Of a stretch of DNA of 64,000 nt, positions 14,452 through 63,550 are shown piece by piece (within the stretch, counting starts at the first letter, position 1; each line of letters starts with the position of its first letter). Source of the stretch: Streptomyces globisporus (lineage in GTDB: Bacteria; Actinomycetota; Actinomycetes; Streptomycetales; Streptomycetaceae); NCBI GenBank assembly GCA_014649555.1, contig BMTG01000009.1:62001-126000 (forward strand), read 5' to 3'. The notes under the pieces are model-generated. The model made no database searches and was not told the DNA's origin. It worked only from the letters and a program-made list of their open reading frames with translations. Made by a program: the position numbers and the translations under genes.

Positions 14452-14474
14452 GAGGATTCATTCTAGACAGGGTC

Positions 14475-14519: not shown

Positions 14520-14570
14520 AGCACGTCAACGCATTTCACCACTGCGGTACGGGCAAGGGGGCTCGACACG

Positions 14571-16193
14571 ATGCAGCAGGCACCGGTCCTGGCGAGCGCG
14601 GCCGATCCCGCCTCGGAGGCCTGGCAGGCCAACGAGGCGGCGCATCGCGCGCTCTCCGACGACCTGGCGGGACGTCTCGCCACGGCACGGCTGGGCGGGG
14701 GTGAGAAGGCGCGGGCCCGCCACGAGGCGCGCGGCAAACTGCTCCCCCGGGACCGGGTGGACACCCTTCTCGACCCGGGCTCCCCGTTCCTGGAGCTGGC
14801 CCCCCTGGCGGCGAACGGGATGTACGGGGACCAGGCCCCGGCCGCGGGCGTCATCGCGGGCATCGGGCGGGTCTCCGGCCGGGAGTGCGTGATCGTCGCC
14901 AACGACGCGACCGTCAAGGGCGGCACGTACTACCCGATGACCGTGAAGAAGCACCTGCGCGCCCAGGAAGTGGCTCTGGAGAACCGTCTCCCCTGCCTCT
15001 ACCTGGTCGACTCGGGCGGTGCGTTCCTGCCGATGCAGGACGAGGTCTTCCCCGACCGGGACCACTTCGGGCGGATCTTCTACAACCAGGCCCGGATGTC
15101 GGGGGCGGGCATCCCGCAGATCGCGGCGGTGCTGGGCTCCTGCACGGCGGGCGGGGCGTACGTCCCGGCGATGAGCGACGAGGCCGTCATCGTCCGCAAC
15201 CAGGGCACGATCTTCCTCGGCGGCCCGCCGCTGGTGAAGGCGGCGACCGGCGAGGTCGTGACGGCGGAGGAGCTGGGCGGCGGCGAGGTCCACTCCCGTA
15301 CGTCGGGGGTCACCGACCATCTCGCGGAGGACGACGCGCACGCGCTGCGGATCGTCCGCAACATCGTCGCGACCCTCCCGGACCGGGCCCCGCTCCCCTG
15401 GTCGGTCGAGCCGGCCGAGGAGCCGAAGGTCGACCCGGCGGGGCTGTACGGGGCGGTCCCGGTGGACTCCCGCACCCCCTACGACGTCCGCGAAGTGATC
15501 GCCCGGGTCGTGGACGGCTCCCGCTTCCAGGAGTTCAAGGCGGAGTACGGCCAGACCCTGATCACCGGCTTCGCCCGGATCCACGGCCACCCGGTCGGGA
15601 TCGTCGCGAACAACGGCATCCTGTTCTCCGAGTCCGCCCAGAAGGGCGCGCACTTCATCGAGCTGTGCGACCAGCGCGGCATCCCGCTCGTCTTCCTCCA
15701 GAACATCTCCGGCTTCATGGTCGGCCGGGACTACGAGGCGGGCGGCATCGCCAAGCACGGCGCGAAGATGGTCACGGCGGTGGCCTGCACCCGGGTGCCG
15801 AAGCTGACGGTCGTCGTCGGCGGTTCGTACGGCGCGGGCAACTACTCCATGTGCGGCCGGGCCTACAGCCCCCGCTTCCTCTGGATGTGGCCGAACGCCA
15901 AGATCTCGGTGATGGGCGGTGAGCAGGCGGCCTCCGTCCTGGCCACCGTCAAGCGCGACCAGCTCGGCGACGACTGGAGCGCCGAGGACGAAGAAACGTT
16001 CAAGGCCCCGATCCGCGCCCAGTACGAGACCCAGGGCAACGCCTACTACGCCAGCGCCCGGCTCTGGGACGACGGGGTGATCGACCCCGTGGACACCCGG
16101 CAGGTCCTCGGCCTCGCCCTGACCGCCTGCGCCAATGCCCCGTTGCCCCAGAAGGACCCGGCCGGGCCCGGCTTCGGCGTCTTCCGGATGTGA
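14571..16193 (+). CDS. Acyl-CoA carboxylase carboxyltransferase (methylcrotonoyl-CoA carboxylase beta type)
   Basis: This is the beta subunit of a biotin-dependent carboxylase. It transfers carboxyl from carboxybiotin to an acyl-CoA, here most likely 3-methylcrotonoyl-CoA in leucine breakdown. The 540-residue length is typical. Characteristic crotonase-fold segments are [20 protein letters not shown], the oxyanion loop [16 protein letters not shown], and in the second half [27 protein letters not shown] and [16 protein letters not shown]. The C-terminal [17 protein letters not shown] is also standard. The HMG-CoA lyase downstream supports methylcrotonoyl-CoA rather than propionyl-CoA as substrate. 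It starts the operon and precedes the biotin subunit by 7 bp. Confidence 0.92.
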
Positions 16194-16200
16194 GGAACAG

Positions 16201-18156
16201 ATGACGACGATGTTCGACACCGTTCTGGTCGCCAACCGCGGCGAGATCGCGGTCCGGGTGATCCGGACCCTGCGGGAGCAGGGCGTGCGCTCGGTCGCGG
16301 TCTTCAGCGACGCGGACGCGGACGCCCGGCATGTCCGGGAGGCGGACACGGCGGTACGGATCGGCCCGCCGCCCGCCGCCGAGAGCTATCTGAACGTGCC
16401 GGCGCTCCTGGAGGCGGCCCGCCGCACGGGGGCGCAGGCGGTCCACCCGGGGTACGGATTCCTGGCGGAGAACGCGGAGTTCGCACAGGCGTGCGCGGAC
16501 GCCGGGCTGGTCTTCATCGGCCCGCCCGCCGCCGCGATCGCGCTCATGGGTGACAAGATCCGGGCCAAGGAGACGGTCGCGGCGTACGGCGTCCCGGTCG
16601 TGCCCGGCTCCTCCGGCAGCGGTCTGACCGACGCCGAACTGGAGTCGGCGGCTCGGGAGATCGGCACCCCGGTCCTACTGAAGCCCTCTGCGGGCGGCGG
16701 CGGGAAGGGCATGCGCCTGGTCCGCGACGCGGCGGTGCTGGGCGAGGAGATCGCGGCGGCGCGACGGGAGGCCCGCGCCTCCTTCGGCGACGACACCCTG
16801 CTCGTCGAGCGGTGGATCGACCGCCCGCGCCACATCGAGATCCAGGTCCTGGCGGACGCCCACGGCACCGTGATCCACCTGGGCGAGCGCGAGTGCTCGC
16901 TCCAGCGCCGCCACCAGAAGATCATCGAGGAGGCGCCGTCCGTCCTGCTGGACGAGGCGACCCGGGCGGCGATGGGCGAGGCGGCCGTCCAGGCGGCGCG
17001 CAGTTGCGGTTATGTCGGGGCGGGGACGGTGGAGTTCATCGTCCCGGGCAACGACCCGTCCTCGTACTACTTCATGGAGATGAACACCCGCCTCCAGGTC
17101 GAGCACCCGGTGACCGAGCTGATCACCGGCCTGGACCTGGTGGAGTGGCAGCTGAGGGTGGCATCCGGCGAGCAACTCCCTTACGCACAGGAGGACATCA
17201 CGCTGACCGGCTGGGCGATCGAGGCGAGGGTCTGCGCCGAGGACCCCTCCCGCGGCTTCCTGCCCTCCGGCGGTACGGTGCTGGCGCTGCGCGAACCGCA
17301 GGGCGGCGGGGTGCGGACGGACTCGGGGCTCAGCGAGGGCGTGCCGGTGGGCAGCCTGTACGACCCGATGCTGTCGAAGGTCATCGCGTACGGCCCCGAC
17401 CGCGCGACGGCCGTCCGCAAGCTGCGGGCGGCCCTGGCGGACACGGTGATCCTGGGCGTCCCGACCAACGCGGGTTTCCTGCGCCGCCTGTTGGCGCACC
17501 CGGACGTGGTGGCGGGCAACCTGGACACGGGTCTGGTGGAGCGCGAGGCGGAGGGCCTGGTGCCGGACGGGGTTCCGGACGAGGTGTACGCGGCGGCTGC
17601 GGCGGTGCGCCTCGACGCCCTGGCCCCCCGGCCGGACGCGGGCGGCTGGACGGACCCGTTCTCGGTGCCGAGCGGGTGGCGGACGGGGGGTGTGCGGGCG
17701 CCGCTGACCTTCCCGTTGCGGGTGTCGGGCGCGGACCCGGTGACGTACGGGGCCCCGGCCTCCGCGACGGTCACGGCCGACCGGGTCACGGTCGAACAGG
17801 ACGGCACGGTCGTCCACTTCCACCGTTCCGGCGACTGGCTCGGCCGGGACGGTGACACCTGGCACGTCCAGGACCACGACCCGGTGGAGGCCTCCCTGAG
17901 CGGGGCGGGCCGGAGCGGGGCGGACACGCTGGCGGCCCCGATGCCCGGCACGGTCACGGTGGTGAAGGTGGCCGTCGGGGACGAGGTCGAGGCAGGGCAG
18001 AGCCTGCTCGTGGTGGAGGCGATGAAGATGGAGCACGTGATCTCCGCCCCGCACGCGGGGACGGTGACGGAGCTGGACGTCTCGGCGGGCGCGACGGTGG
18101 CTATGGACCAGGTCCTGGCGGTCGTGGTCCCGGTCGCCGACGGGGAGGACGCATGA
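16201..18156 (+). CDS. Acyl-CoA carboxylase biotin-carrying alpha subunit (methylcrotonoyl-CoA carboxylase type)
   Basis: This alpha subunit combines biotin carboxylase (residues about 5-450) with a C-terminal biotinyl domain. Visible motifs are [16 protein letters not shown] at the start, the ATP-grasp loop [14 protein letters not shown], the catalytic [14 protein letters not shown], and [12 protein letters not shown] near the end, whose lysine carries biotin. The 651-residue length fits methylcrotonoyl-CoA carboxylase alpha. The ATG at 16201 follows GAGGAACAG and lies 7 bp after the beta gene. The stop overlaps the HMG-CoA lyase start (ATGA), so all three are translationally linked. Confidence 0.93.
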
Positions 18157-19127
18157 GCACGCAAGGGCTCCCCATGAAGGTTCCGGCCCCCGGCCTCCCG
18201 GCCCGGGTCCGTATCCACGAGGTGGGCGCGCGGGACGGCCTGCAGAACGAGAAGCAGGCCGTCCCGACCGAGGTGAAGGCGGAGTTCATCCGCCGCCTGG
18301 CGGTGGCAGGACTCACCACCATCGAGGCGACGAGCTTCGTGCACCCGGAGTGGGTGCCCCAACTTGCGGACGCCGAGGCGCTTTTCCCGCTCCTCGGCGA
18401 CATCGCCGACGTAGGAGACGTATCCCTCCCCGTCCTGGTCCCGAACGAACGCGGACTGGACCGGGCGCTGGCGCTCGGGGTGCGGTCGATCGCGGTGTTC
18501 GGCTCGGCGACGGAGACGTTCGCGGCCCGCAATCTGAACCGGACGGTCGACGAGTCGCTGGCGATGTTCGAGCGGGTGGTGGCCCGCGCCAAGGCGGACA
18601 AGCTCCGGGTGCGTGGGTATCTGTCGATGTGCTTCGGTGACCCGTGGGAGGGCGCGGTCCCGGTCGCCCAGGTGGTGAGGGTGGCCAAGGCCCTGATGGA
18701 CCTGGGCTGCGACGAGCTGTCGCTGGGCGACACGATCGGGGTGGCGACGCCGGGCCATGTGACGGCGCTGCTGACAGCCCTGAACGAGGCAGGCGTGGCG
18801 ACGCCCGCGATCGGCGTCCACTTCCACGACACGTACGGCCAGGCGCTGTCGAACACCCTGGCGGCGCTCCAGCACGGGGTGAGCACGGTCGACGCCTCCG
18901 CGGGCGGCCTGGGCGGCTGCCCGTACGCCAAGAGCGCCACGGGGAACCTCGCCACCGAGGACCTGGTCTGGATGCTCGAAGGACTCGGCATCGAAACGGG
19001 CGTCGACCTGGCCGAACTGACCGCCACCAGCGTCTGGCTGGCCGAACACCTGGGCCGGCCGAGCCCATCCCGCACGGTCCGTGCCCTGACCCCTCCCCCT
19101 TCTTCCTCTCCCACAAGGAGTGAGTGA
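18153..19127 (+). CDS. Hydroxymethylglutaryl-CoA lyase
   Basis: This cleaves HMG-CoA to acetyl-CoA and acetoacetate, the last step of leucine degradation. It is a 324-residue TIM-barrel enzyme of the DRE-TIM family. The metal-binding start is [13 protein letters not shown], the barrel continues with [15 protein letters not shown] and [12 protein letters not shown], and the lyase signature [15 protein letters not shown] contains the active-site cysteine. The start codon overlaps the previous stop by four bases (ATGA). The gene is part of the catabolic operon that continues into the acyl-CoA dehydrogenase. Confidence 0.93.
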
Positions 19128-24145: not shown

Positions 24146-25594
24146 ATGCGTTCGCACCTGCTCAACAACACGACTGCGGAGCACTATCGGAGCACCGTCT
24201 CCGCAGGCGTGGAACGGGTCGCGGCCACCCTCGCCGCCACCGAGCGCCCCTTCAGCGGGGTCGGTGTCGACGAGCTCTCCCCCGTCGTCGACGCGATCGA
24301 CCTCGACCGCCCGCTGGGCGACGCCGCCGCCGCCCTCGACGAACTCGGCGAGGTCTACCTCCGCGACGCCGTCTACTTCCACCACCCCCGCTACCTGGGT
24401 CACCTCAACTGCCCGGTCGTCATACCCGCGGTGCTCGGCGAGGCCGTGCTCTCCGCGATCAACTCCTCCCTGGACACCTGGGACCAGAGCGCGGGCGGCA
24501 CCCTCATCGAGCGCCGGCTGATCGACTGGACCACCGAGCGGATCGGGCTCGGCCCGGCCGCCGACGGCATCTTCACCAGCGGCGGCACACAGTCCAACCT
24601 CCAGGCCCTGCTGCTGGCGCGGGAGGAGGCGAAGATCCGGCCGGAGCACTTCACCCGGCTGCGGATCTTCACCTCCGAGTGCAGCCACTTCAGCGTGCAG
24701 AAGTCCGCCAAACTGCTCGGCCTCGGCCCGGACGCCGTCGTCTCCGTCCCCGTGGACCGCAACAAGCGCATGCAGACCGTGGCGCTGGCGCACGCGCTGG
24801 AGCAGTGCTTCGCCGAAGGCGCCGTCCCGATGGCCGTCGTCGCGACCGCCGGCACCACGGACTTCGGGTCCATCGACCCGCTGCCCGAGATCGCCGCGCT
24901 CTGCGAGCAGTTCGCCACCTGGTTGCACGTGGACGCCGCGTACGGCTGCGGGCTGCTCGCCTCCCGTGAGCGGCGCGGGCTGCTCGAAGGCATCGAGCAC
25001 GCCGACTCCGTGACGGTGGACTACCACAAGTCCTTTTTCCAGCCGGTGAGTTCGTCGGCCGTCCTGGTCCGTGACCGGGCGACCCTGCGGCACGCCACGT
25101 ACCACGCGGAGTATCTGAACCCGCGCCGGATGGCCGAGGAGCGGATACCCAACCAGGTCGACAAGTCCCTCCAGACGACCCGCCGGTTCGACGCGCTCAA
25201 GCTGTGGATGACGCTGCGCGTCATGGGCGCCGACGGCATCGGCGAGCTGTTCGACGAGGTCTGCGACCTGGCCTGCGAGGGCTGGAAGCTGCTCGCCGCC
25301 GACCCGCGCTTCGACGTGGTGGTCCAGCCGCAGCTCTCCACGCTCGTCTTCCGCTACATCCCGGCCGGGGTCACCTCCCCGGACGAGATCGACCGGGCCA
25401 ACCTCCACGCCCGCAAGGCGCTGTTCGCCTCCGGCGAGGCGATCGTCGCCGGCACGAAGGTGGGCGACCGCCAGTACCTGAAGTTCACCCTGCTCAACCC
25501 CGAAACGACCGAGCACGACATCGCCACCGTCCTCGACCTGATCTCCGGCCACGCCGAGCAGTACCTGGGAGACTCCCTTGACCGCGCTTCCTGA
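24146..25594 (+). CDS. desA: Lysine decarboxylase of desferrioxamine biosynthesis
   Basis: This PLP-dependent decarboxylase converts lysine to cadaverine, the first step of desferrioxamine synthesis. It is 482 residues, group II decarboxylase fold. The PLP lysine is K295 in [10 protein letters not shown]; the substrate and cofactor region includes [14 protein letters not shown] and [12 protein letters not shown]. The start [16 protein letters not shown] agrees with known DesA proteins as I recall them. ATG 24146 is preceded by GGGAGG at 24130-24135. A second ATG at 24114, with its own strong GGAGGG, opens a short overlapping frame. The gene leads a tightly coupled operon: desB starts 17 bp inside its 3' end. 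Confidence 0.96.
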
Positions 25595-26855
25595 CCCCCA
25601 CGACTTCATCGGGATCGGCCTCGGCCCGTTCAATCTCGGACTCGCCTGCCTCACCGAGCCGATCGACGAACTGAACGGCGCCTTCCTGGAGTCCAAGCCG
25701 GACTTCGAGTGGCACGCCGGGATGTTCCTCGAAGGGGCCCATCTCCAGACGCCGTTCATGTCGGACCTGGTCACCATGGCCGACCCGACCTCGCCGTACT
25801 CCTTCCTCAACTACCTCAAAGAGCGCGGCCGGCTCTACTCGTTCTACATCCGGGAGAACTTCTACCCGCTGCGGACCGAGTACAACGACTACTGCCGCTG
25901 GGCCGCCGGGAAACTGAGCAGCATCCGGTTCTCCGAGACCGTGGAGACGGTGACGTACGACGAGGGCACCGAGCTCTACACCGTGCGCACCGTGTCCGGC
26001 GAGGAGTTCCGCTCGCGCCACCTCGTCCTCGGTACCGGCACGCCGCCGCACATCCCCGAGGCCTGCCAGGGGCTCGGCGGGGACTTCATCCACAACTCCC
26101 GCTATCTGGACGGGAAAGCCGAGATCCAGAAGAAGAAGTCGATCACCCTGGTCGGCAGCGGGCAGAGCGCGGCGGAGATCTACTACGACCTGCTGTCCGA
26201 GATCGACACCTACGGCTACCGGCTCAACTGGGTCACGCGCTCCCCGCGGTTCTTCCCGCTGGAGTACACCAAGCTGACGCTGGAGATGACCTCCCCGGAG
26301 TACATCGACTACTTCCACGCGCTGCCCGAGGAGACCCGTTACCGGCTGGAGACCGGACAGAAGGGGCTGTTCAAGGGCATCGACGGGGAACTGATCGACG
26401 CGATCTTCGACCTGCTCTACCAGAAGAACCTGCCGGGCCCCGTGCCGACCAGACTGCTCACCAACTCCGCTCTCGTCAGCGCGCGTTACGACGAGGAGGG
26501 CGGCGCGTACAGCCTGGGGCTGCGCCAGGAGGAGCAGGGCAAGGACTACGAGCTCACCACCGAGGGCCTGATCCTCGCCACCGGCTACCGGTACGAGGCT
26601 CCCGCCTTCCTCGCCCCCCTGGCAGGGCGGCTGCGCCACGACAGCCGGGGCCGCTTCGACGTGGCCCGCAACTACAGCATCGACACCACCGGGCGCGGGG
26701 TCTTCCTCCAGAACGCCTCGGTGCACACCCACTCGATCACCTCGCCCGACCTCGGCATGGGCGCCTACCGCAACGCGTACATCATCGGCGAGCTGCTCGG
26801 CCGTGAGGTCTACCCGGTCGAGAAGTCCATCGCCTTCCAGGAGTTCGCCGTATGA
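25578..26855 (+). CDS. desB: Cadaverine N-hydroxylase (lysine/ornithine N-monooxygenase family)
   Basis: This FAD- and NADPH-dependent monooxygenase hydroxylates cadaverine to N-hydroxycadaverine. The FAD-binding motif [12 protein letters not shown] is at residues 12-23, followed by the family [25 protein letters not shown]. The NADPH motif [19 protein letters not shown] lies near residue 190, and the C-terminal ATGYRYEAP motif near 335. The start is TTG 25578 with GGGAG at 25568-25572. It overlaps desA by 17 bases and its own stop overlaps desC (ATGA). Length 425 is normal. Confidence 0.96.
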
Positions 26856-27421
26856 CCCGCCCCGGCAAACAGCAGTCCGCAGCCATCGGCACGTTCACCG
26901 TCCGGCCGCTGGACCCCGCCGTCGACGCCGAGCTGGTGCACGGCTGGGTGACCCACCCCAAGGCCGCGTTCTGGCTGATGGGCGACGCCTCACTCGCCGA
27001 CGTGGAGCGGGAGTACCGGTCCATCGCCGCCCACCCCCACCACGAGGCGTTCATCGGGCTGCACGACGGCGAACCCGCCTTCCTGATCGAGCGGTACGAC
27101 CCCACCGAGGTCGAGCTGAAGGGCCTGTACGAGGCGGAGCCCGGCGATGCCGGGATGCACTTCCTGGTCGCCCCCACCGACACCCCGGTGCACGGCTTCA
27201 CCCGGGCCGTGATCACCGCCGTGATGGCCTTCCTCTTCGCCGACCCGTCGGTGCGCCGGGTCGTCGTCGAGCCCGACGTGACCAACAGCGCCGTCCAGGC
27301 CCTCAACAAAGCCGTCGGGTTCGAGGTGCTCCGCGAGATCGCCAAACCGGAGAAGGACGCTCTGCTCAGCGCCTGCACCCGTGAGCAGTTCGAAGCAGCA
27401 ACCGGAGGTAACGACCGATGA
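26852..27421 (+). CDS. desC: N-hydroxycadaverine acyltransferase
   Basis: This GNAT-fold acyltransferase acylates N-hydroxycadaverine with succinyl- or acetyl-CoA, giving the hydroxamate building block. It belongs to the IucB/AlcB-like group: [30 protein letters not shown] at the start, [20 protein letters not shown] in the middle, and [23 protein letters not shown] at the acyl-CoA binding end. The start and stop both overlap neighbours by four bases (ATGA), which keeps stoichiometry with desB and desD. Confidence 0.94.
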
Positions 27422-29196
27422 CGACCGCCCTCACCGACAGCGTCGCCCACCTCTCCCCGGGGCGCTGGGCCACCGCAAACCGACTGCTGGTCCGCAAAGC
27501 ACTGGCGGAATTCAGCCACGAGCGGCTGCTGGCTCCTACGCCGCTCGGCGATGACCGCTTCACCGTCCGTAGCGACGACGCGTCCACCGAGTACCGTTTC
27601 ACCGCGCGCGTCTTCGCGCTGGACCACTGGCAGGTCGAGGCCGGGACCATCACCCGGCACCGGCACGGCTCCGAAATCCCGCTGGACGCCGTGGAGTTCT
27701 TCATCGAACTGCGGCACACTCTGGGGATCTCCGAGGAGATCCTGCCGGTCTACCTGGAGGAGATCTCCTCCACGCTGGCCGGAACCGCCTACAAACTCAC
27801 CAAGGAACCGGCCACCTCCGGCCAGCTCGTCGCCGCCGGTTTCCAGGCCGTCGAGACCGGGATGACCGAGGGCCACCCCTGCTTCGTCGCCAACAACGGG
27901 CGGCTCGGCTTCGGCGTGGACGAGTACCGGGCGTACGCCCCCGAGGCGGCATCCCCGATCCGGCTGGTGTGGCTGGCCGCCCGCCGGGACCGGGCCACCT
28001 TCACCGCGGGGGCCGGGCTCGACTACGACGCGCTGGTCAAGGACGAGCTGAGCGAGTCGACCCGGGAGCGGTTCGCCGGCGCGCTGGGCGGGCTCGGCCT
28101 CGACCCGGACGACTACTTCCTGCTGCCCGTCCACCCCTGGCAGTGGTGGAACAAGCTCGCGGTCACCTTCGCCGGCGAGCTGGCCGAGCGCCATCTGGTG
28201 GTGCTCGGGGAGGGCGAGGACGGCTATCTCGCCCAGCAGTCGATCCGTACCTTCTTCAACACCGACCACCCCGAGAAGCACTACGTCAAAACGGCGCTCT
28301 CGGTCCTCAACATGGGCTTCATGCGCGGGCTTTCGGCCGCGTACATGGAGGCGACGCCCGCGATCAACGACTGGCTGGCCGGTCTCATCGAACGGGACGA
28401 CCTGCTGCGCGGGGCCCGGTTCTCGATCATCCGGGAGCGGGCCGCGATCGGCTACCACCACCGCTCGTACGAGGCGTCCACCGCCAAGGGCTCCCCGTAC
28501 CGGAAAATGCTCGCCGCCCTGTGGCGCGAGAGCCCGGTCCCGGGGCTCCAGCCGGGCGAGCGGGTCGCGACGATGGCCTCGCTGCTCCACACCGACCACG
28601 AGGGCGGCTCGGTGGCCGGGGTGCTGATCGCCGAGTCGGGCCTGGACCCGCAGGTGTGGCTGCGGCACTACCTGGACGCCTATCTGGTGCCGGTGCTGCA
28701 CAGCTTCTACGCCTACGACCTGGTCTACATGCCGCACGGCGAGAACGTGATCCTGGTGGTGGAGGACGGGGTCGTCACCCGCACCATCTTCAAGGACATC
28801 GCCGAGGAGATCGCGGTGATGGACCCGGAGGCGGTGCTGCCGCCGCAGGTCGACCGGATCCGGGCCGAGGTGCCCGAGGACATGAAGCTGCTGTCGGTCT
28901 TCACGGACGTCTTCGACTGCTTCTTCCGCTTCCTGGGCGCGGGCCTGGCCACCGAGGGCCTCCTCGACGAGGACACCTTCTGGCGGACGGTCGCCGCCTG
29001 TGTGCGCGACTACCAGGAGTCGGTGCCGTATCTCGCGGAGAAGTTCCAGCAATACGACCTGTTCCAGCAGGAGTTCGCCCTCTCGTGCCTCAACCGCCTC
29101 CAGCTGCGGAACAACCAGCAGATGGTCGACCTCAACGACCCCGCGGGCGCGTTGCAGTTGGTGGGCCGTCTGAAGAACCCGATCTCCGGGTTCTGA
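27418..29196 (+). CDS. desD: Desferrioxamine synthetase (NIS synthetase, IucA/IucC family)
   Basis: This ATP-dependent NRPS-independent siderophore synthetase joins N-hydroxy-N-succinylcadaverine units and closes the desferrioxamine ring. The 592-residue length matches characterised DesD. Family motifs are HPWQWWNKLAVTF near residue 240, QQSIRTFFN, the KTALSVLNMGFMRGLSAAYM segment near 290 and the FhuF-like C-terminal domain beginning about 400 (YAYDLVYMPHGENVILV). It is the last gene of the operon; a 12-bp hairpin follows at 29232-29261. Confidence 0.96.
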   Translation: MTTALTDSVAHLSPGRWATANRLLVRKALAEFSHERLLAPTPLGDDRFTVRSDDASTEYRFTARVFALDHWQVEAGTITRHRHGSEIPLDAVEFFIELRHTLGISEEILPVYLEEISSTLAGTAYKLTKEPATSGQLVAAGFQAVETGMTEGHPCFVANNGRLGFGVDEYRAYAPEAASPIRLVWLAARRDRATFTAGAGLDYDALVKDELSESTRERFAGALGGLGLDPDDYFLLPVHPWQWWNKLAVTFAGELAERHLVVLGEGEDGYLAQQSIRTFFNTDHPEKHYVKTALSVLNMGFMRGLSAAYMEATPAINDWLAGLIERDDLLRGARFSIIRERAAIGYHHRSYEASTAKGSPYRKMLAALWRESPVPGLQPGERVATMASLLHTDHEGGSVAGVLIAESGLDPQVWLRHYLDAYLVPVLHSFYAYDLVYMPHGENVILVVEDGVVTRTIFKDIAEEIAVMDPEAVLPPQVDRIRAEVPEDMKLLSVFTDVFDCFFRFLGAGLATEGLLDEDTFWRTVAACVRDYQESVPYLAEKFQQYDLFQQEFALSCLNRLQLRNNQQMVDLNDPAGALQLVGRLKNPISGF

Positions 29197-53351: not shown

Positions 53352-54371
53352 ATGCCGCACGCCACCGCGCCGCCCGCGACCGGTCATCGACCCCGCTGGT
53401 GGACGGAGCTGCCACTGATCGCGGTGGTGTACGCGCTGTATTCCGTGGGCCGTCTCCTGGTGCGCGGCGACGTGTCGACGGCGGTCGACCACGGCCTGGC
53501 GATCCTCCGGCTCGAACAGGCGCTGTACCTCAACGCCGAGCACCCGCTGAACCGTCTCTTCACGAGCACCCCGTCCATCGGCATACCCGCCGACTTCGCC
53601 TACGCCTCCCTGCATTACGTGGTCACTCCGGCCGTCCTCGTCTGGATGTTCCGGCGCAGGTCGACGGCGTACCGGACGGCCCGGGTCTGGCTGATGAACT
53701 CCACGCTGCTGGGTCTTGTCGGCTTCACGCTGATGCCGACCTGCCCGCCCCGGCTGCTGGACGCGAGCCACGGCTTCGTCGACACGATGGCGCAGTACAG
53801 CGCGTACGGCTGGTGGGGCGAGGGGGCGAGCGCGCCGCGCGGGCTGAGCGGGATGACCAACCAGTACGCGGCGATGCCCAGCCTGCACGTCGGCTGGTCG
53901 CTCTGGTGCGGGATCCTGCTGTGGCGGCACGGCCGCCACCCCCTGATACGGACGGCGGGGATCGCCTATCCGCTGATCACCACGATCGTCGTGATGGGCA
54001 CCGCCAACCACTACTTCCTGGACGCCGTCGCGGGCGCGGCCGTGATGGGCCTCGGGGCCCTGCTGGTGAAGCCCGTCATCCGGTTCGCCGACGGGGTCAA
54101 GGCGCGGCTGACCGGCGTCCTCCCCGACGGCCTCCCCGGCAGCCGGAAGCAGGGCGGCGCGAGCACCGCCGCCGCGGCGATTCCGGCGACCGTGTCCCCG
54201 GATGTCAGTGCCGGGTGCAAGACTTCCACGGGTGAGCGAATCCCCGGCCAGCGGACCACCTCCGCAGATCCCCCCGGCACGGCAGTCGGCGGCACGGCAG
54301 TCGTCGGGCCGGCAGCCAGAGACGCCGCCGACGCGGACGCGAGCGACGACGCTCCGGCAGCGGCTCGCTGA
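53352..54371 (+). CDS. PAP2-family phosphatase / inositol phosphoryl transferase-like membrane protein
   Basis: This is a PAP2 (phosphatidic acid phosphatase type 2) membrane protein. Six hydrophobic segments lie in residues about 20-235. Motif 2 is [19 protein letters not shown] (PSLH) and motif 3 [15 protein letters not shown] (HxxxD). The first motif is less distinct, as in the AUR1/inositol phosphotransferase-like PAP2 branch. The C-terminal 100 residues are hydrophilic and of low complexity, and the last 47 codons overlap the start of the next gene in another frame. ATG 53352 with GGGGAG upstream is the start. Role: lipid phosphate turnover or phospholipid head-group exchange. Confidence 0.85.
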
Positions 54372-55512
54372 GCTGCGCGGCCCGTCCGTCGCACCGCACC
54401 CGCTGGACGCCAGAGCCCTGGCCGCCCTCGCCGCCAACCCCGGCTGCAAGCGGCGGGCCCTGCTCGACGGCGCCGGGGTGGACAAGGGCGTGCTGGCCAC
54501 CGCGCTCGGCTCACCTGCCCCCTTCGGGCAGTCCCAGTTCGCCTTCATGCGGGGCAACGCCTTCGAGGCGAAGGTCAAGGCCGACGGCGGCGCGGAGCTG
54601 CTCCGCCTGCTGTACGAGCGCCTGGGCGGCTCCTCCCCCGCCCCGGGCCCGGAGGCCGCGACCCCTGATCTGAGCGCCGCCGGTCCCGAGGGCCGTGCCG
54701 CGCGCACCGCGCTCGCCCTGCGGGAGGCCACGGCGGCGGGCGGCTGGGCGCTGCTGGACCACCCGATGCTGGCCCTGGAGGTGGCGGGCTCGCCCGCCTA
54801 TCTGGAGCCGGACGCGGTGGTCGTGCACCCCGACGGCCGGTGGACGGTCGTCGAGATCAAGTCATTTCCCATGATCGACGCCTCCGCGGACGCGTCGAAG
54901 GTCGGCGCCGCCGCCCGGCAGGCCGCGGTGTACGTGCTGGCGCTGGAGCGGGTCGCGGCGGTGACGGAGGGTGCGGAGGTCGGGCAGCGAGTGCTGCTGG
55001 TCTGCCCCAAGGACTTCTCGAACCTGCCGACCGCCTCCGTCGTGGACGTACGCAAGCAGTGCGCGGTGACCCGCCGTCAGCTGACCCGGCTGACCCGGAT
55101 CGAGGACATCGCGGCGGGCCTGCCGGAGGGGACGACGTTCGATCCGGCGTGCCCGTCCGAGGAGCTGGACGCGGCCGTGGCGGCGGTGCCCCCGGCGTAC
55201 GCCCCGGAGTGCCTGGCCGCCTGCGAGCTGGCCTTCCACTGCCGGGCGAAGTCGCGGGCGGAGGGCGCGGTGGAGACGCTGGGGCGCAGCGTGCGCGGTG
55301 AGCTGGGCGGGCTGACGACGGTGGCCGGGGTGCTGGCCGCCGCCGCGGGCAAGGAAGGGGATCCCGCCGATCCGACGGTCGTGGCGCTGCGCCGGGCCGC
55401 CGCCCTGCGGGCCGAGGCCCTGGAGAGCGCCGCCGCCCTGCGGGCCGGGGCGCGGGAAGCCGCCTCGGTCCCGGGCGCCGGGACTCCGGAAGGCGCGGCC
55501 ACATGTCGCTGA
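54232..55512 (+). CDS. RecB-family (Cas4/AddB-like) Fe-S nuclease, predicted, 426 aa
   Basis: The motifs of a PD-(D/E)XK RecB-type nuclease are in order: GNAFEAKV near residue 108-115, LEPDAVVV with Asp194, VVEIKSF with Glu208 and Lys210, and [10 protein letters not shown] with Gln230 and Tyr234 (the RecB QxxxY motif). Four cysteines fit the Cas4/AddB [4Fe-4S] pattern: C72 before the nuclease core and C327, C331, C337 after it ([11 protein letters not shown]). It therefore probably digests DNA ends. The start is uncertain: GTG 54232 gives a 140-bp overlap with the PAP2 gene; the conserved part begins near residue 41. Its stop overlaps the following gene by 10 bases. Confidence 0.75.
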
Positions 55513-57119
55513 TCACCACCCTGGCCCGGCTGGAGGCCGTCGACACCGGCCGCGCCCAGCCGCTCGCGACCGTCCGCCACCGTCATCTCACCGACCGGCC
55601 GCTGGTGCTGGTGCCGCTGACCACCGCCGGTGAGGCCGGGGCCCCGCTCGGGGCGCTGGTCGGCACGGACCGGGAGGCGCCCCGGCTGCTGGCCGTCGCC
55701 CAGCCGCGTGACCGGGATCTGCGCTTCGCGTTCCTGGCCGAGCTGGCGGAGGCGGTCCTGCCGCACATCGAGGCGTACGCGGACGTCGTCGAGCCCGCCG
55801 AGCGCAACGAGACGGATCCGGCGACCGGCAAGAAGACCAAGGTCGAGGTCGAGCTGTGCACGGACGCAGGCCAGCTGATCGTGCCGAGCCGGGCGGGCGT
55901 CGAGTTCGTCCGGCTGCTGGGCCGGTCCATGCGGTTCCGCCGCACCGCCGAGGACGATCCGGACACCCCCTATCCGGCCCCGGCCCGGGTGCCGCTGCTC
56001 GGCCGCTGGCTGACGCATTACGGGGAGCGGGCCCGGGTGCCCGGCTCCTCGCTGCTGCTGGCCGCCACCGATCTGCTGAACCGGCACTGGGCGACCGGGC
56101 AGAGCAGCCTGGAGGACCAGCACCTGGGCGCGCTGCTGTCGTGGATCGCCCCGCCGGCCGGTTCCTCGGGGGCCGAGGCGGCGCTGCGGGCGGAGCTGGC
56201 CCGGGACGGGGAGGGCCAGTTGCTCTGCCCGCCGGCCGGTCCGGCGACCGACCCGGACTTCGACAACCGTCTGCTCGCCCCGGCGATCGAGCGGTACGAC
56301 CGGGCGCGCACGGCGCTGGCGTCCGCCGAGGACGGGCTCGCCGCGGACGCCCGCCTGGGTGAGCTGAGCGGCGCCGAGCGGGAGATCCGTTCGCTGCTGG
56401 CGCGGGTCATGCTGCCGACCTGGGACGCGGTCTGGCGCGGTCTCGACCTGCTGCGGGAGCTGCCCGAGGGGGCCCGGGCCGAGGACCGCTGGACCCGGGA
56501 CCGCTGGTCGTTCACCGCGCACCGCGACCGGGTGCGCTCGGGCGAGCCGCCGCAGCCGCGCCGCGACGACGCGGTGACGGCAGCGCAGAAGCTGGCCTCC
56601 CGGGAGACCGCCCAGGCCCAGCTGGAGGCGCAGGAGGCACTGGACGATCCGCTGGTGCTGGCGGGGCGGCGGCTGGCGGGCGAGGCGTTCCTCGCCACGG
56701 TGACGGATGTGGAGATGACGTACACGGAGTCCAAGCGGCCCTCGCCGCGCCCGCTGGTCACCGTCCGCACGGACGAGCGACCGCATCTGAGTGAGCGGAC
56801 GAAGGTCTACCGCTCGCTGGAGGGCAAGCCGCAGACGGCGGAGTTCGTGCGGGCCGAGGAGGAGCCGGACCAGGACGGCGACGTCCTGCTGGTGCTGCGG
56901 ATTCTCGACCGGATGGGCCGGGGCAAGGAGCCCGCGCCGGGTTCGGTACCGGGGCCCGGGGACCGGATCGCCTGGACCCTGTTCGAGCACGACCAGCGCG
57001 GCGGTCCGAAACTGCCGGACCCGGAGGAGACGCCGTGGACCCACGGCGGGCCGCCGGGCGCGGACGCCGCGACGCGAGCGGAGCAACCCGACCCCGTGAC
57101 CTCGGAGGACCTGCTGTGA
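55503..57119 (+). CDS. Uncharacterised protein of the nuclease/helicase module, 538 aa
   Basis: I recognise no domain. The 538-residue protein begins [21 protein letters not shown]. Its N-terminal half alternates strands and helices (LVLVPLTTAGEAGAPLGALVGTDREAPRLLAVAQPRDRDLRFAFLAELAEAVLPHIEAY). The middle is helical and charged (PAIERYDRARTALASAEDGLAADARLGELSGAEREIRSLLARVMLPTWDAVWRGLDLLRELP), with many Arg and Glu. The C-terminal third carries VTDVEMTYTESKRPSPRPLVTVRTDERPHLSERTKVY and a disordered acidic tail. No membrane segment or catalytic signature is visible. It starts inside the nuclease stop region and precedes the helicase by 25 bp, so it is probably a subunit linking the two. Confidence 0.7.
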   Translation: MSLITTLARLEAVDTGRAQPLATVRHRHLTDRPLVLVPLTTAGEAGAPLGALVGTDREAPRLLAVAQPRDRDLRFAFLAELAEAVLPHIEAYADVVEPAERNETDPATGKKTKVEVELCTDAGQLIVPSRAGVEFVRLLGRSMRFRRTAEDDPDTPYPAPARVPLLGRWLTHYGERARVPGSSLLLAATDLLNRHWATGQSSLEDQHLGALLSWIAPPAGSSGAEAALRAELARDGEGQLLCPPAGPATDPDFDNRLLAPAIERYDRARTALASAEDGLAADARLGELSGAEREIRSLLARVMLPTWDAVWRGLDLLRELPEGARAEDRWTRDRWSFTAHRDRVRSGEPPQPRRDDAVTAAQKLASRETAQAQLEAQEALDDPLVLAGRRLAGEAFLATVTDVEMTYTESKRPSPRPLVTVRTDERPHLSERTKVYRSLEGKPQTAEFVRAEEEPDQDGDVLLVLRILDRMGRGKEPAPGSVPGPGDRIAWTLFEHDQRGGPKLPDPEETPWTHGGPPGADAATRAEQPDPVTSEDLL

Positions 57120-57144
57120 TCACCGCCATCCGGGAGGACCTTCC

Positions 57145-58479
57145 GTGAGCACCGTCTTCGATCCGGGCGCGGAGGCGGCCCGTGCGACCGGCGCGATTCT
57201 CGACGACACCCTGCACGGCAGCAGCCGGGGCATCGTCGTGGACTCGCCCCCGGGCGCGGGCAAGTCGACGCTGGTGGTCCGGGCGGCCCTGGAGCTGGCC
57301 GCCGCCGGGCATCCCCTGATGGTGATCGCGCAGACGAACGCCCAGGTCGACGACCTGGTCGTACGGCTCGCGGAGAAGGACCCGGAGCTGCCGGTGGGGC
57401 GGCTGCACAGCAGCGACTCCGACCCGTACGACAAGGTGCTGGACGGCCTCGCCAACGTCACCAAGTCGGCGAAGGCGGCGGATCTGGCCGGGCTCGACGT
57501 GGTGATCTCGACGGCCGCCAAGTGGGCGCACGTGAAGAACGTGGAGCCGTGGGGGCACGCGATCGTCGACGAGGCGTACCAGATGCGTTCGGACGCGCTG
57601 CTGGCCGTGGCCGGGCTGTTCGAGCGGGCGCTCTTCGTCGGGGACCCGGGTCAGCTGGACCCGTTCTCGATCGTGGGCGCGGACCAGTGGGCGGGGCTGA
57701 GCTACGACCCGTCCGCGAGCGCGGTGTCCACGCTGCTCGCGCACAATCCGGAGCTGCCGCAGCACCGGCTGCCGGTGTCGTGGCGGCTCCCGGCGTCGGC
57801 GGCCCCGCTGGTGTCGGACGCGTTCTACCCGTACACGCCGTTCCGCAGCGGTACGGACCACGGGGACCGGAAGCTCTCGTTCGGGGTGGCGTCGGACGGG
57901 TCGGGGCCCGACCGGGTGCTGGACGAGGCGGCGGAGTCCGGCTGGGGGCTGCTGGAGCTGCCCGCCCGGCACACCCCGCGCACCGACCCCGAGGCGGTAC
58001 GGGCGGTGGCCCTGGTGGTCCGGCGGCTGCTGGACCGGGGCGGCGTCGCCACCAGCGAGCGGGCGGACGAGCCGGTGCCGGTGACGGCGGACCGGGTGGC
58101 GGTCGGCACGGCCCACCGGGACCAGGCGGCCGCGGTGCGGGCGGCCCTCGCGGAGCTGGGTGTCACGGGGGTCGCGGTCGACACGGCGAACCGGCTCCAG
58201 GGCCGCGAGTTCGACGTCACGGTGGTGCTGCACCCCCTGTCGGGCCGCCCCGACGCCACGGCCTTCCACCTGGAGACGGGCCGCCTGTGCGTGCTGGCGT
58301 CCCGGCACCGGCACGCCTGCGTCGTGGTGTGCCGGGAAGGGGTGGCGGACCTGCTGGACGAACATCCGTCCACGGAGCCGGTCCAGCTGGGCGTCACGGT
58401 GAAGTTCCCCGACGGCTGGGAGGCCAACCACGCGGTGCTGGCCCATCTCGCGGAGCACCGGGTGCGCTGGAGGCCTTAG
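57145..58479 (+). CDS. SF1B-type helicase/ATPase (Upf1/Dna2-like), 444 aa
   Basis: This is a P-loop superfamily 1 helicase. Motif I is SPPGAGKST (residues 34-42), motif Ia VIAQTNAQVDDL (60-71), motif II VDEAYQ (141-146), motif III FVGDPGQLDP (164-173), motif IV-like SWRLP (212-216), motif V VDTANRLQGREFDVTVV (345-361) and motif VI CVLASRHRHACVVV (382-395). The pattern is that of Upf1/Dna2-like enzymes, which translocate on single strands. At 444 residues it lacks accessory domains. Together with the nuclease two genes upstream it resembles a split Dna2. It ends the coupled trio; a small acidic protein gene follows at 96 bp. Confidence 0.85.
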   Translation: MSTVFDPGAEAARATGAILDDTLHGSSRGIVVDSPPGAGKSTLVVRAALELAAAGHPLMVIAQTNAQVDDLVVRLAEKDPELPVGRLHSSDSDPYDKVLDGLANVTKSAKAADLAGLDVVISTAAKWAHVKNVEPWGHAIVDEAYQMRSDALLAVAGLFERALFVGDPGQLDPFSIVGADQWAGLSYDPSASAVSTLLAHNPELPQHRLPVSWRLPASAAPLVSDAFYPYTPFRSGTDHGDRKLSFGVASDGSGPDRVLDEAAESGWGLLELPARHTPRTDPEAVRAVALVVRRLLDRGGVATSERADEPVPVTADRVAVGTAHRDQAAAVRAALAELGVTGVAVDTANRLQGREFDVTVVLHPLSGRPDATAFHLETGRLCVLASRHRHACVVVCREGVADLLDEHPSTEPVQLGVTVKFPDGWEANHAVLAHLAEHRVRWRP

Positions 58480-58575
58480 GAGCTGCCCGGCAGGCGCGAC
58501 AGGCCCCGAGGCGCCCTTGCGCGGGGTTGGACAATGGAGGGTGGCCGACCTGGCCGTGCGAGGGAGGAACAGCAC

Positions 58576-58917
58576 ATGACAGAGTCCGAGCGGAACGAAC
58601 GGCAGCGGCTGCGCCCCGCGCCGCTGCTCTTCGAGCCGTCTCAGGCCACGGAGGATCCGGAGCACTTCTTCGACCTGGAGTCGCTGGAGGACCCGCGTGA
58701 GCTGCTGGCCCGGGCGACCGAGCTGACACAGGCCTTCCGGGCGGCGACGGACCGGTCGGTGGAGTTCCAGGCGATGGCGGCGGCGCAGCTCGCCGACCCG
58801 CGCCGGTTCGACCGGCTGACCGCGGCGGACGTCGCGGAGCGCGCGGAGTGGACCGAGGACTACGCGAAGAAGATGATCGAGTTCGGCCGCTCGCTGCTGG
58901 ACTCCCCGAGAGCCTGA
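58576..58917 (+). CDS. Small acidic helical protein, 113 aa
   Basis: No known domain is apparent. The 113 residues are acidic and helical: LFEPSQATEDPEHFFDLESLEDPRELLARATELTQAFRAATDRSVEFQAMAAAQLADPRRFDRL, then TAADVAERAEWTEDYAKKMIEFGRSLL. ATG 58576 follows GGGAGG with good spacing. It lies 96 bp after the helicase gene. The acidic composition would suit a DNA mimic or a protein-interaction adaptor, but that is speculation. Confidence 0.65.
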   Translation: MTESERNERQRLRPAPLLFEPSQATEDPEHFFDLESLEDPRELLARATELTQAFRAATDRSVEFQAMAAAQLADPRRFDRLTAADVAERAEWTEDYAKKMIEFGRSLLDSPRA

Positions 58918-61244: not shown

Positions 61245-61630
61245 ATCGACCTCCGGATGGGGAAACACGGTCCATCCCGTCCACCCTGTGCCGCTTCACC
61301 ACGCCACGCCCTGTTGTGCTGCCCCACACGGGTCAGCGGTCAAAATCGCCACCCACACCTTCACGGAACGTCACCACCAGTCAGTCCCATCGTCCGATGC
61401 AACAGATCCGCGCAGAAATTACCAGGACCGGGCAAAGCGGAACGCCTGCCCCCGCTCACTTCCGGCCGCGCGCAGTGGCCCGGACCGGACGGTGAGCTGG
61501 AACGGCCGACGCGGCACCCTCTATGCTTCACCACGCTTTCCCGCGTGGAACGGGCCCCTTCACGGGACCACCACCCGGCGGCCAGTCCGACCCCACCAGT
61601 TCACAACGACCTTCACAGCGGGAGCGAGCG
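61245..61630. other. Divergent intergenic region between the metalloprotease and cyclic-di-GMP genes
   Basis: The 386 bp hold the promoters of two divergent genes. An open frame from 61523 runs into cdgA without a ribosome site. I see no repeat or strong hairpin. cdgA homologues are BldD targets; I could not find a convincing match to the BldD pseudo-palindrome by eye. Confidence 0.5.
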
Positions 61631-63550
61631 GTGAGCGGAACCTCCGAAGGGCCGAGGGCCTCGGCAGGCACGGCCCCGGGCGCGCCCGCCGCGCCGGTCA
61701 CGGAGCGTCATACGACGGCCCCGGCCGAGAACGGTCCCGCCCGGACCGATTCCGCCCGGACCGGTCCCGCCGGGGGCGAGGCCGGTTCCGACGCCTCCGA
61801 GCTGCGCGACTACCGGGCCGCGTTCAACGCCGCCACGCTCCCCATGGGCGTCGTCGACGGCCGGGGCCATGTCGTACGGGCCAACGAGGCGCTCGGCGGG
61901 CTCCTGGGGACCCCTGCGGCGGTCCTCGCCGGGCGGCAGGCGTGCGAACTGCTCGACCTCGCCGGCGACGACCGCACCTGGCACGCCTACCGCGAGGTGC
62001 TCCTCGGCCGGCGCTCCCGGTTCCGCTGCACGCGCCGCCTCAAGCACCCCGACGGGCGCTCCCTGTGGGCCGAGATCACCGTCGTACCGATGACGGGAGC
62101 CTCGGCGGCGGAGTCCGCCCGGGTGCTCCTGACGGTCGCGGACGTCAGCGACCGGCGCGAGCTCCAGGAGCGGCTGCGCCACCTCCAGATGCACGACCCG
62201 GTGACCCGGCTGCCCAACCGGACGCTGTTCTTCGAGCGCCTCGCCTCGGCCCTGGAGACCCCGCCGTACCAGGACGACTCCCTGCCGCCCCGGCAGCACG
62301 CCCGGATCGGCCTCTGCTACCTGGACCTGGACGGCTTCAAGGCGATCAACGACACCCTGGGGCACCGCACCGGGGACCGGCTGCTGGCCGCCGTCGCCGC
62401 GCGGCTCACCGACTGCGCCGAGAACGACGCCTCCCGCAACGCCGGGGGCACCCGGCTGGTGGCGCGCCTGGGCGGCGACGAGTTCGCGATCCTGGTCGAG
62501 GACTCGGCCGGCACCCAGGAGCTGACCGACCTGGCCCGCTCGGTCCTCGCCGCGCTCCAGCAGCCGTTCGACCTGGCCGGGCAGCGGCTCTCGGTCTCCG
62601 CGTCGATCGGCGTGGTCGAGCGGTCCGCCGCGGGCACCTCGCCCACCGGTCTGATGCAGGCCGCCGACACCACGCTGTACTGGGCGAAGGCGGACGGCCG
62701 GGCCCGCTGGACCCTGTTCGACCCCGAGCGCAACGCCCACCGCATGACCCGGCAGTCCCTCTCGTCCACGCTCCGGCCCGCCGTGGAGCGCGGCGAATTC
62801 ACGCTGGAGTACCAGCCGCTGGTCGGGATGGCCGACGGGGTGCTGCGCGGGGTCGAGGCGCTGGTGCGCTGGAACCACCCGCAGTTCGGCGTGCTGCCGC
62901 CGAATCGGTTCGTCCAGATCGCCGAGGAGGACGGTTCGATCGTCCAGCTCGGCCGGTGGGTGCTGCGCACCGCGTGCCGGCAGGCGCGGCGCTGGCAGCT
63001 GGACCACCCGGACGAGCCGCCGCTGTTCATCAGCGTCAACGTCGCCGTACGGCAGGTCTGGGACTCCGACCTGGTGGCCGACGTGGCGCAGATCCTGGCC
63101 GAGACCGAACTCGCCCCCGGGCTGCTCCAGCTGGAGCTGACCGAGTCGGCGGTGATGGGCTCCGGCGGGCGTCCGCTGAGAGCGCTCCAGGCGCTGAGCG
63201 ACATGGGCGTACGGATCGCCATCGACGACTTCGGGACGGGTTATTCGAACCTCGCCTACCTCAGCAGGCTGCCCGTCTCCGTCCTGAAGCTGGACGGGGC
63301 GTTCGTGAAGGGCTTCCGGTACGAGGACGGTACGCACCCGAGCCCCGCGGACGAAACGATCGTGGAGGCCATGGTGCAACTGGCGCACCGCCTGGGCCTG
63401 ACCGTCACCGCGGAGTGCGTGGAGACGGCCGGGCAGGCGGAGCGGCTGCGGCGGATCGGCTGCGACACGGGGCAGGGGTGGCTGTACTCGCGGGCCGTGG
63501 CGCCGGAGCAGATCGCCGGGCTGATCGGGTCCCGGCCGCTGGAGGGCTGA
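61631..63550 (+). CDS. cdgA: PAS-GGDEF-EAL cyclic-di-GMP enzyme (CdgA-like)
   Basis: This is a predicted bifunctional diguanylate cyclase/phosphodiesterase. After a low-complexity N-terminus of about 60 residues comes a PAS domain (about 60-175, FNAATLPMGVVDGRGHVVRANEALGGLLG). A GGDEF domain follows with intact LGGDEFA (281-285), then an EAL domain with EAL at 409-411 and the DDFGTGYSNLAYLSRLPV loop. The product-inhibition I-site RxxD is absent (residues 272-275 are GGTR). The domain order matches CdgA of S. coelicolor, which influences development. GTG 61631 is chosen for GGGAG at 61619-61623. No membrane segments are seen, so it is cytoplasmic. Confidence 0.88.
   Translation: MSGTSEGPRASAGTAPGAPAAPVTERHTTAPAENGPARTDSARTGPAGGEAGSDASELRDYRAAFNAATLPMGVVDGRGHVVRANEALGGLLGTPAAVLAGRQACELLDLAGDDRTWHAYREVLLGRRSRFRCTRRLKHPDGRSLWAEITVVPMTGASAAESARVLLTVADVSDRRELQERLRHLQMHDPVTRLPNRTLFFERLASALETPPYQDDSLPPRQHARIGLCYLDLDGFKAINDTLGHRTGDRLLAAVAARLTDCAENDASRNAGGTRLVARLGGDEFAILVEDSAGTQELTDLARSVLAALQQPFDLAGQRLSVSASIGVVERSAAGTSPTGLMQAADTTLYWAKADGRARWTLFDPERNAHRMTRQSLSSTLRPAVERGEFTLEYQPLVGMADGVLRGVEALVRWNHPQFGVLPPNRFVQIAEEDGSIVQLGRWVLRTACRQARRWQLDHPDEPPLFISVNVAVRQVWDSDLVADVAQILAETELAPGLLQLELTESAVMGSGGRPLRALQALSDMGVRIAIDDFGTGYSNLAYLSRLPVSVLKLDGAFVKGFRYEDGTHPSPADETIVEAMVQLAHRLGLTVTAECVETAGQAERLRRIGCDTGQGWLYSRAVAPEQIAGLIGSRPLEG

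Follow-up and report, generated by a model that had tools for sequence, protein, structure and literature searches.

The window, the whole 64,000-nucleotide stretch of Streptomyces globisporus DNA that was analysed, contains a series of five ORFs in the same orientation:

53399..54235, + strand: ORF for a PAP2-like membrane protein, named by eye, flanking and outside the system
54232..55512, + strand: P1, predicted RecB/Cas4-type PD-(D/E)XK nuclease with a four-cysteine Fe-S-type motif (from motifs and fold)
55503..57119, + strand: P2, 538-amino-acid protein without recognised domain
57145..58479, + strand: P3, compact SF1B helicase of UPF1/SMUBP-2/DNA2 type (from sequence matches)
58534..58917, + strand: P4, small conserved protein judged to be outside the system (from genome searches)

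The ORF coordinates bear out the initial annotation, both for the location of the four genes P1-P4 and for their spacing (a 10-bp overlap between P1 and P2, and a gap of 25 bp between P2 and P3). The GTG at 54232 is a credible start for P1 because it shares nucleotides with the stop codon of the preceding PAP2-like ORF (GTGA); an alternative in-frame ATG is located at 54202. The PAP2-like ORF itself has no Pfam match at E 1e-4.

P1 possesses the motif residues E112, D194, E208-x-K210, Q230 and Y234, together with cysteines C72, C327, C331 and C337 (numbering from 54232). In an alignment of 156 P1 rows, from which one fragment shorter than 300 amino acids was dropped and in which five rows repeat an already counted gene, the four cysteines are kept in 156/156 rows, and 143/156 retain the full set of seven scored motif positions. 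Judging from this conservation, the motifs and the cysteine pattern are not due to chance. Catalytic residues are altered in 13 of the 156 rows, among them every one of the 6 copies that adjoin pPIWI-RE island genes, and nuclease activity would therefore not be required everywhere. The P1 structure was modeled with a pLDDT of 87.5 and a pTM of 0.79. A PDB fold search with this model returned a single match at E<=0.001, the Cas4-family protein ACE1 (7.8e-4), followed by RecE (1.0e-3) and MGME1 (1.1e-3), with AdnA, Cas4, AddB, Dna2 and Exo5 at E 0.006-0.08. These matches are modest (TM-scores of about 0.2-0.27 by query, some unrelated rows interspersed), and the sequence evidence alone is weak: PDDEXK_1 is reached in Pfam at E 0.014, below the cut-off, and the P1 profile found no nuclease among PDB sequences, its two top matches being repeat artefacts. 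A structural search placing P1 outside the PD-(D/E)XK nucleases would have spoken against the RecB-family nuclease with D194, E208-x-K210 and four cysteines proposed initially; the best fold matches are PD-(D/E)XK nucleases, and the fold and the conservation across 156 rows both support the assignment. By its residues and fold, P1 thus presents a feature of Dna2 and Bad, the RecB-type PD-(D/E)XK nuclease with four Fe-S cysteines, Fe-S binding being predicted. A further candidate identity, Cas4, was rejected, since no PADLOC model matched P1 at E<=1.

For P3, sequence comparison was sufficient to place the protein. Pfam AAA_11 and AAA_12 match above the cut-off, Walker A is found at about residues 33-42 and a DEAYQ box at 142-146, and a PDB search with the P3 profile retrieved DNA2 first, then SMUBP-2 and UPF1, in agreement with the SF1B helicase previously proposed. 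The best match of the single-sequence PDB search is SMUBP-2, not DNA2, which counts against a DNA2-like reading. By sequence, P3 is an SF1B motor of UPF1/DNA2 type and not a UvrD-type SF1A motor joined to a nuclease: the two are encoded by separate genes, and the 16 Pfam families listed with P3 include no UvrD family. Position 28 of the P3 profile aligns to SMUBP-2 residue 206 and position 25 to DNA2 residue 641; therefore, P3 lacks the region preceding the motor.

P2 represents a widespread protein family without recognised domain. As had been noted from the sequence, nothing significant came from family, PDB-sequence or PDB-fold searches; the fold search of the PDB gave no match at E<=0.001 (best 6e-3), and that among viral structures nothing useful. 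In the P2 model, a mixed part at the N-terminus is followed by long helices (about 251-391) and then by strands (about 395-492). According to this model, the helices and the beta-rich part could be the source of the region absent from P3; as UPF1 and DNA2 are missing from the best 50 rows of the P2 fold search, their reading as a stalk and a barrel is architectural only.

P2 is present in 136/147 genomes of the order and in 129/132 of the genus, three genus members being devoid of the system. None of the 11 P2-negative genomes has P1 or a full P3 (positive controls found, 2/2), and two of them contain only a 28-bit P3 fragment inside another frame of 1286 amino acids. Where P3 is not adjacent, it is found on the same contig, 36 and 49 kb away (2/2 genomes searched). 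At two empty sites the conserved neighbours flank no P1-P3, and at a third the PAP2-like gene is missing as well. The distances of P1, P2 and P3 correlate (r 0.93-0.97, 81 loci), as shared ancestry would also cause them to do. P1-P2-P3 is a genetic unit: loss of co-occurrence would have contradicted the system as first proposed, and the three genes instead co-occur and vanish together. The small acidic protein initially counted as a component is a real ORF, yet P4 is an independent core gene and not part of the system, as it was found in 18/18 genomes searched, the 3 same-genus genomes without P1-P3 among them; it was thus rejected as a member.

In the window, the system occupies a conserved site as a fixed part of the chromosome. 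In all 14 same-genus genomes that contain both P2 and P4, the two are no more than about 2 kb apart, the P1-P3-positive loci opened show the gene order of the window (2/2), and core P2 rows form one clade with a support of 99, in a tree that omits 19/157 rows, all of them core copies. Searches of viral contigs and of phages with P2 were negative, and the plasmid collection yielded 3 matches, one of which lies in an 11.9-Mb record. P3 likewise has no relative in phages, and on the basis of these P2 and P3 searches a phage-borne system was rejected.

Accessory (paralogous) copies usually carry an extra upstream gene, C4, which gave only coiled-coil-like noise against Pfam and the PDB (the C4 scan omitted L164 and L165). 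A winged helix was suggested for C4 by eye only. Positions of P1-P3 and C4 were obtained by tblastn, and flanking genes were called with a GC-frame script and are rough. SbcC and SbcD were mapped close to P2, with two different arrangements, at 16 of 125 loci, and Wadjet genes follow P3 downstream at 3 of 125; these counts omit L001-L031, which are short, and four loci repeating a genome, and the Wadjet and restriction-neighbour count uses L170 instead of the overlapping L048. At L165, both SbcC and SbcD are matched over a short length, by genes that look disrupted. Other neighbours of accessory copies are pPIWI-RE, GmrSD, PLD-ResIII-DUF3427 proteins and a type III-like methyltransferase, the latter adjoining L041, L044 and L045. 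No SbcC or SbcD was seen beside the window copy, and no adjacent defence gene was recognised there (P1-P4 by PADLOC; three further window proteins by Pfam). A distant P2-P3 pair was found on actinobacterial plasmids (hhalign probability 95.4, E 1.8e-8), seemingly without P1 in the 4 plasmid loci searched; the P1 and C4 profiles reached 0.1 against the same plasmid proteins.

Taken together, our results make it fairly probable that P1, P2 and P3 constitute one ATP-driven helicase-nuclease, Dna2/Bad-like and split in three, devoted to maintenance in its core form and to the destruction of foreign DNA in its accessory form. P1 would be the Fe-S nuclease and P3 the motor, in the order seen in Dna2 and Bad, and P2 might supply the parts absent from P3, with helices and a barrel resembling the stalk and the 1B barrel found in UPF1/Dna2 motors. 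The enzyme would load on DNA ends or flaps, unwind them and cut single strands. The data establish the protein families, the conservation of catalytic residues and cysteines, the joint presence and joint loss of the genes, their neighbourhoods and a P2-P3 pairing, and from these we infer complex formation as well as activity, polarity, substrate and role. The fold of P1, the co-occurrence and the co-loss all support the initial idea of a Dna2-like system divided among several polypeptides, one of them an additional subunit. Its alternative roles, recombination, end processing or phage and plasmid restriction, can be narrowed: the window copy, a chromosomal fixture, would ensure chromosome maintenance by end resection or flap removal, and defence-gene neighbours were recognised at paralogous copies, where C4 and often a further enzyme (SbcCD, Wadjet, pPIWI-RE, type III-like RM or GmrSD) may supply or trim ends on invading DNA.

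The core copy might itself be a fixed anti-plasmid or anti-phage system simply kept by the genus, and not a maintenance enzyme. We consider this unlikely, albeit worth keeping in mind. In its favour, the system is absent as a block from three genus members, its paralogues adjoin the defence genes listed above (Wadjet, pPIWI-RE, GmrSD, PLD-ResIII-DUF3427 proteins and a type III-like methyltransferase), and the authors of the Bad study deemed a novel restriction enzyme plausible (PMC7430649). Retention by 129/132 genus members, a single site (P4 proximity 14/14, gene order 2/2), the single core clade (support 99), the results of the P2 searches of mobile elements (viral contigs and phages unmatched, 3 plasmid-collection matches with the 11.9-Mb record among them) and the window copy, beside which PADLOC (P1-P4) and Pfam (three more proteins) recognised no defence gene, all argue for maintenance instead. 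Improbable in our view is a target consisting of RNA or R-loops rather than DNA ends, as is often the case for UPF1-type motors: UPF1, NAM7 and SMUBP-2 are indeed among the relatives of P3, but DNA2 is the first match of its profile, the best fold matches of P1 are mostly DNA nucleases, and SbcCD and restriction genes recur as neighbours. We give hardly any credit to co-transcribed and co-inherited proteins working separately, without a stable complex, which the plasmid P2-P3 pair seemingly without P1 (4 loci) would suit, given the joint absence of the three genes in 11/11 genomes, the presence of unlinked P3 in the same genome (2/2) and the region missing from P3 that its relatives possess.

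The processing of DNA ends opens the way to recombination repair and is a point at which cells often fight phages and plasmids; a near-universal end-processing enzyme for which no description was found would leave a gap in the knowledge of antibiotic producers that have been heavily studied. If the split helicase-nuclease that we favour is true, nuclease, helper and motor become open to study one by one, and the accessory operons with SbcCD and Wadjet raise a testable question: what degrades Wadjet-linearised DNA?

A literature search, in which subscription papers were thinly covered, revealed no recognised description of the P1-P2-P3 gene set. A system named in PADLOC 2023 was rejected, since 0 families were obtained for P1 and P2 at E<=1; P3 has partial matches only (best MkoC, E 4.1e-8). 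Residues 27-399 of P3 align to the C-terminal part of the 1256-amino-acid PLuB helicase-like model NF040671 (E 6.9e-16), but score 56.8 bits for a cut-off of 999, and P1 and P2 do not match PLuB. Compared with its top fold match, the Argonaute-associated Cas4 family protein ACE1, and with Cas4, P1 is longer, lacks a PADLOC Cas4 match and has P2 and a helicase as partners. AdnA and AddB are among the fold matches of P1 (E 0.006-0.03), whose Fe-S cysteine spacing we take to be AddB-like. However, the motors of AddAB, AdnAB and RecBCD are UvrD-type SF1A and joined to the nuclease, whereas P3 is UPF1-type and separate.

Bad of Geobacillus stearothermophilus is described as a nuclease and a helicase with a central domain of unknown structure in between, and its gene adjoins a type III-like methyltransferase (PMC7430649), a neighbour also of accessory copies L041, L044 and L045. 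Bad and P1-P2-P3 have in common an Fe-S RecB-type nuclease, a central region and an SF1B helicase in the same order, but Bad is one polypeptide, rare and sporadic, while P1-P2-P3 are three genes, near-universal in the genus examined. Nuclease and helicase are not joined in a single polypeptide as in Dna2 and Bad: the window has three ORFs, the mapped homologous loci have separate frames, and P3 searches of plasmids and phages revealed no Bad-like fusion among the 9 places opened. Eukaryotic DNA2 is the top PDB match of the P3 profile and likewise associates an Fe-S PD-(D/E)XK nuclease with an SF1B motor; it differs in being a single chain, and the P2 profile has no PDB sequence match to it.

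Mre11-Rad50 is partnered by Dna2 in eukaryotes and by HerA-NurA in archaea, and the SbcCD genes beside 16 of the 125 loci echo this association with end-resection partners. We tentatively suggest, as a possibility that we rate below an even chance, that P1-P2-P3 could be an undescribed actinomycete counterpart of Mre11-Rad50 plus Dna2 resection, in which P2 would be a new motor partner kept in the plasmid P2-P3 pair. On this view, almost every member of the genus would carry the three-polypeptide enzyme as a fixed part of its chromosome, and defence operons would have taken it up, together with C4 and SbcCD, to degrade DNA linearised by Wadjet or other first cutters.

The four co-directional ORFs described in the initial annotation are present in the window, within a host genome of 8.2 Mb:

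54232-55512, co-directional with P2-P4: P1, putative RecB/Cas4-type nuclease
55503-57119, co-directional with P1, P3 and P4: P2, protein without recognised domain
57145-58479, co-directional with P1, P2 and P4: P3, predicted SF1B helicase
58534-58917, co-directional with P1-P3: P4, small protein

P1, P2 and P3 belong together. Across the order, 136/147 genomes contain P2 (134/144 when only good ones are counted), and so do 129 of the 132 genomes of the genus, a number that counts the window's own genome, 70/394 sampled genomes of the class and 11/296 of a phylum draw, all 11 belonging to the same class. Both P1 and full P3 were missing from all 11 P2-negative genomes of the order in searches that recovered both positive controls, so that the expected co-occurrence of the three genes in relatives held; two of these genomes carry a 28-bit P3 fragment in a different, 1286-aa frame. 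The site between P4 and the PAP2-like gene, the ORF just upstream of P1, is empty in two genomes, and a third genome without P1-P3 also has no PAP2-like match. P3 is not adjacent to P1-P2 in a Micromonospora-type clade (18 rows); a search of two of these genomes placed it on the same contig, 36 and 49 kb away, and one of them has an extra broken P3 fragment. Pairwise distances of the three proteins correlate at 0.93-0.97 across 81 loci, a value that shared ancestry alone could also yield.

P4, the small acidic protein noted earlier after the helicase, was rejected as a member of the system, being present in 18/18 genomes searched, including three of the same genus without P1-P3. It lies beside P1-P3 in the 14 same-genus genomes carrying them and about 3.2 Mb from P2 in a genome of another family (G017). 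Two loci without P1-P3 (L167, L168) have two tRNA-Lys genes near the site versus one in the other three loci scanned. Elsewhere in the window, positions 24146-29196 hold four consecutive ORFs that, by eye, we take to resemble the desferrioxamine desABCD cluster, and a PAS-GGDEF-EAL protein (61523-63550) is likely a cyclic-di-GMP enzyme.

P1 is taken as a Cas4/RecB-type nuclease on the basis of its motifs and modeled fold. Its PDDEXK_1 match in Pfam is sub-threshold (E 0.014), this family being matched at E<=0.1 in 5 of 16 aligned members, and a P1 profile found no nuclease among PDB sequences. Its four cysteines are kept in 156/156 aligned rows, and all seven scored motif positions are intact in 143 of them; we infer that P1 binds an Fe-S cluster. 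The structural search proposed earlier as a check, run with the AlphaFold model (pLDDT 87.5), returned the Cas4-family protein ACE1 (E 7.8e-4) as best and sole PDB match at E<=0.001, followed by RecE, MGME1, AdnA, Cas4, AddB, Dna2 and Exo5 (E 0.001-0.08, low TM-scores), which agrees with the original RecB-family assignment.

The SF1B assignment of P3 was likewise confirmed, with AAA_11 and AAA_12 above the Pfam cut-off and a profile of 19 relatives retrieving DNA2 (8e-12), SMUBP-2 (3.7e-11) and also UPF1 from the PDB; SMUBP-2 ranks first when the single sequence is the query. P3 starts almost at the Walker A motif (profile position 28 aligned to SMUBP-2 residue 206, position 25 to DNA2 residue 641) and therefore has no counterpart of the pre-motor region that carries the stalk and 1B barrel in those two proteins. 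P2 has no significant relative in Pfam, NCBIfam, PADLOC or PDB sequences, as its description as domainless implied. Its confident model (pLDDT 88.9, pTM 0.87) comprises an N-terminal mixed part, helices (251-391) and strands (395-492), and gave no PDB fold match at E<=0.001; small barrels and helical-hairpin-plus-barrel proteins are among its weak ones. P2 would complete P3.

Core copies, which like that of the window occupy one conserved chromosomal site, group on a P2 tree built by a quick method from 138 of the 157 rows (SH-aLRT support 99). A second, accessory copy (41-49% identity) occurs in at least 12 same-genus genomes. A scan of GTDB contigs gave at least 557 confirmed relatives out of at least 595 stretches, the best 80 of which were taken further and belong to Streptosporangiaceae, Thermomonosporaceae, Micromonosporaceae, Pseudonocardiaceae and Frankiaceae. 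An extra gene, C4, was matched directly upstream of P1 in 82 of 125 loci; its product is mostly about 250-340 aa, with uncertain start sites, and one single C4 query, which is weak evidence, found none in the window's genome.

A more distant P2-P3 pair was encountered on plasmids, where tblastn with P3 gave 49 records, three stronger and 46 weaker, the latter mostly from Rhodococcus, Mycobacterium, Mycolicibacterium and Arthrobacter. Nine of the 46 were opened, and in seven a gene for a 387-448-aa protein lies just upstream of the P3-like helicase in the same direction. The profile of the nine helicase-neighbour proteins aligned with P2 over 203 columns (hhalign probability 95.4, E 1.8e-8), versus a probability of 0.1 for the P1 and C4 profiles. 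Searched singly against the P2 profile (nine-protein search), the seven co-directional neighbours gave E 4e-10 to 0.12 and the two opposite-direction ones 0.7 and 0.94; in the reverse search P2 was the top-ranked of 234 window ORFs, with an E of only 0.005. In 6/9 loci an AAA/MoxR ATPase and a VWA gene come first, the module in the actinobacterial plasmid loci L173, L175 and L177-L180 reading AAA/MoxR ATPase, VWA protein, small ORF, P2-like protein, P3-like helicase. P1 was not seen in the four loci searched for it. Together, these findings suggest that the main role of P2 is as partner of the motor, P1 being a nuclease added to the pair.

Gene calls in the flanks of accessory copies are rough and flank lengths vary, and most of the 125 loci have none of the following neighbours within the stretch examined. 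SbcC and SbcD matches, backed by Pfam for examples, occur near P2 in 16/125 loci, always together: upstream and divergent in same-genus genomes and those of f3, f48 and f20, downstream and co-directional in Amycolatopsis and Kibdelosporangium. This label requires four changes on the P2 tree, at least two forced by starred branches, and such repeated adjacency would presumably be improbable by chance. On two plasmids, one of them a linear Streptomyces plasmid, the four Wadjet genes directly follow C4-P1-P2-P3. The first 19 kb (1-19000) of an 8.87-Mb contig (L170) carry, co-directionally, C4-P1-P2-P3, an HA-domain helicase, perhaps a telomere helicase of the TtrA type, and JetA, JetB, JetC and JetD, with SbcD and SbcC upstream and divergent in the overlapping L048; a further locus, L155, shows weak similarity to JetC (25%). 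Six copies (L039-L042, L044, L045) adjoin genes that accompany PIWI in the pPIWI-RE island, with families called in L041 and by similarity in the other five; the published island combines pPIWI-RE with a REase gene and a DinG-type helicase (PMC3702460). P1 in all six has changed nuclease motifs, including K to R and other catalytic changes, and intact cysteines, and three of the six loci also encode ResIII and type III-like methyltransferase proteins. A GmrSD-type gene separates P2 and P3 in two Micromonospora loci (L106:11577-13919, L107:11579-13915), and a PLD-ResIII-DUF3427 protein occurs in four loci. Wadjet and Lamassu are reported by a survey to be enriched towards Streptomyces chromosome ends (PMC10482375). 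An SbcC-like protein (L050:483-3686) scores E 1e-19 against LmuB, a Lamassu model of PADLOC, and automatic Lamassu calls near these ends might include SbcC-type loci of this kind.

The core copy would serve chromosome maintenance and accessory copies the disposal of cut foreign DNA, whose ends SbcCD, Wadjet or other enzymes may make or trim. In Bad, the DNA2-like single-chain helicase-nuclease of Geobacillus stearothermophilus, the central domain is described as structurally uncharacterised, and the gene neighbours one for a type III-like methyltransferase (PMC7430649). Unlike Dna2 and Bad, P1-P2-P3 are three separate ORFs and are therefore not classed as members of that group. Their order is that of Bad, a nuclease, an uncharacterised middle and an SF1B motor, and on this basis we read them, by analogy, as a three-polypeptide enzyme that would work like Dna2/Bad.
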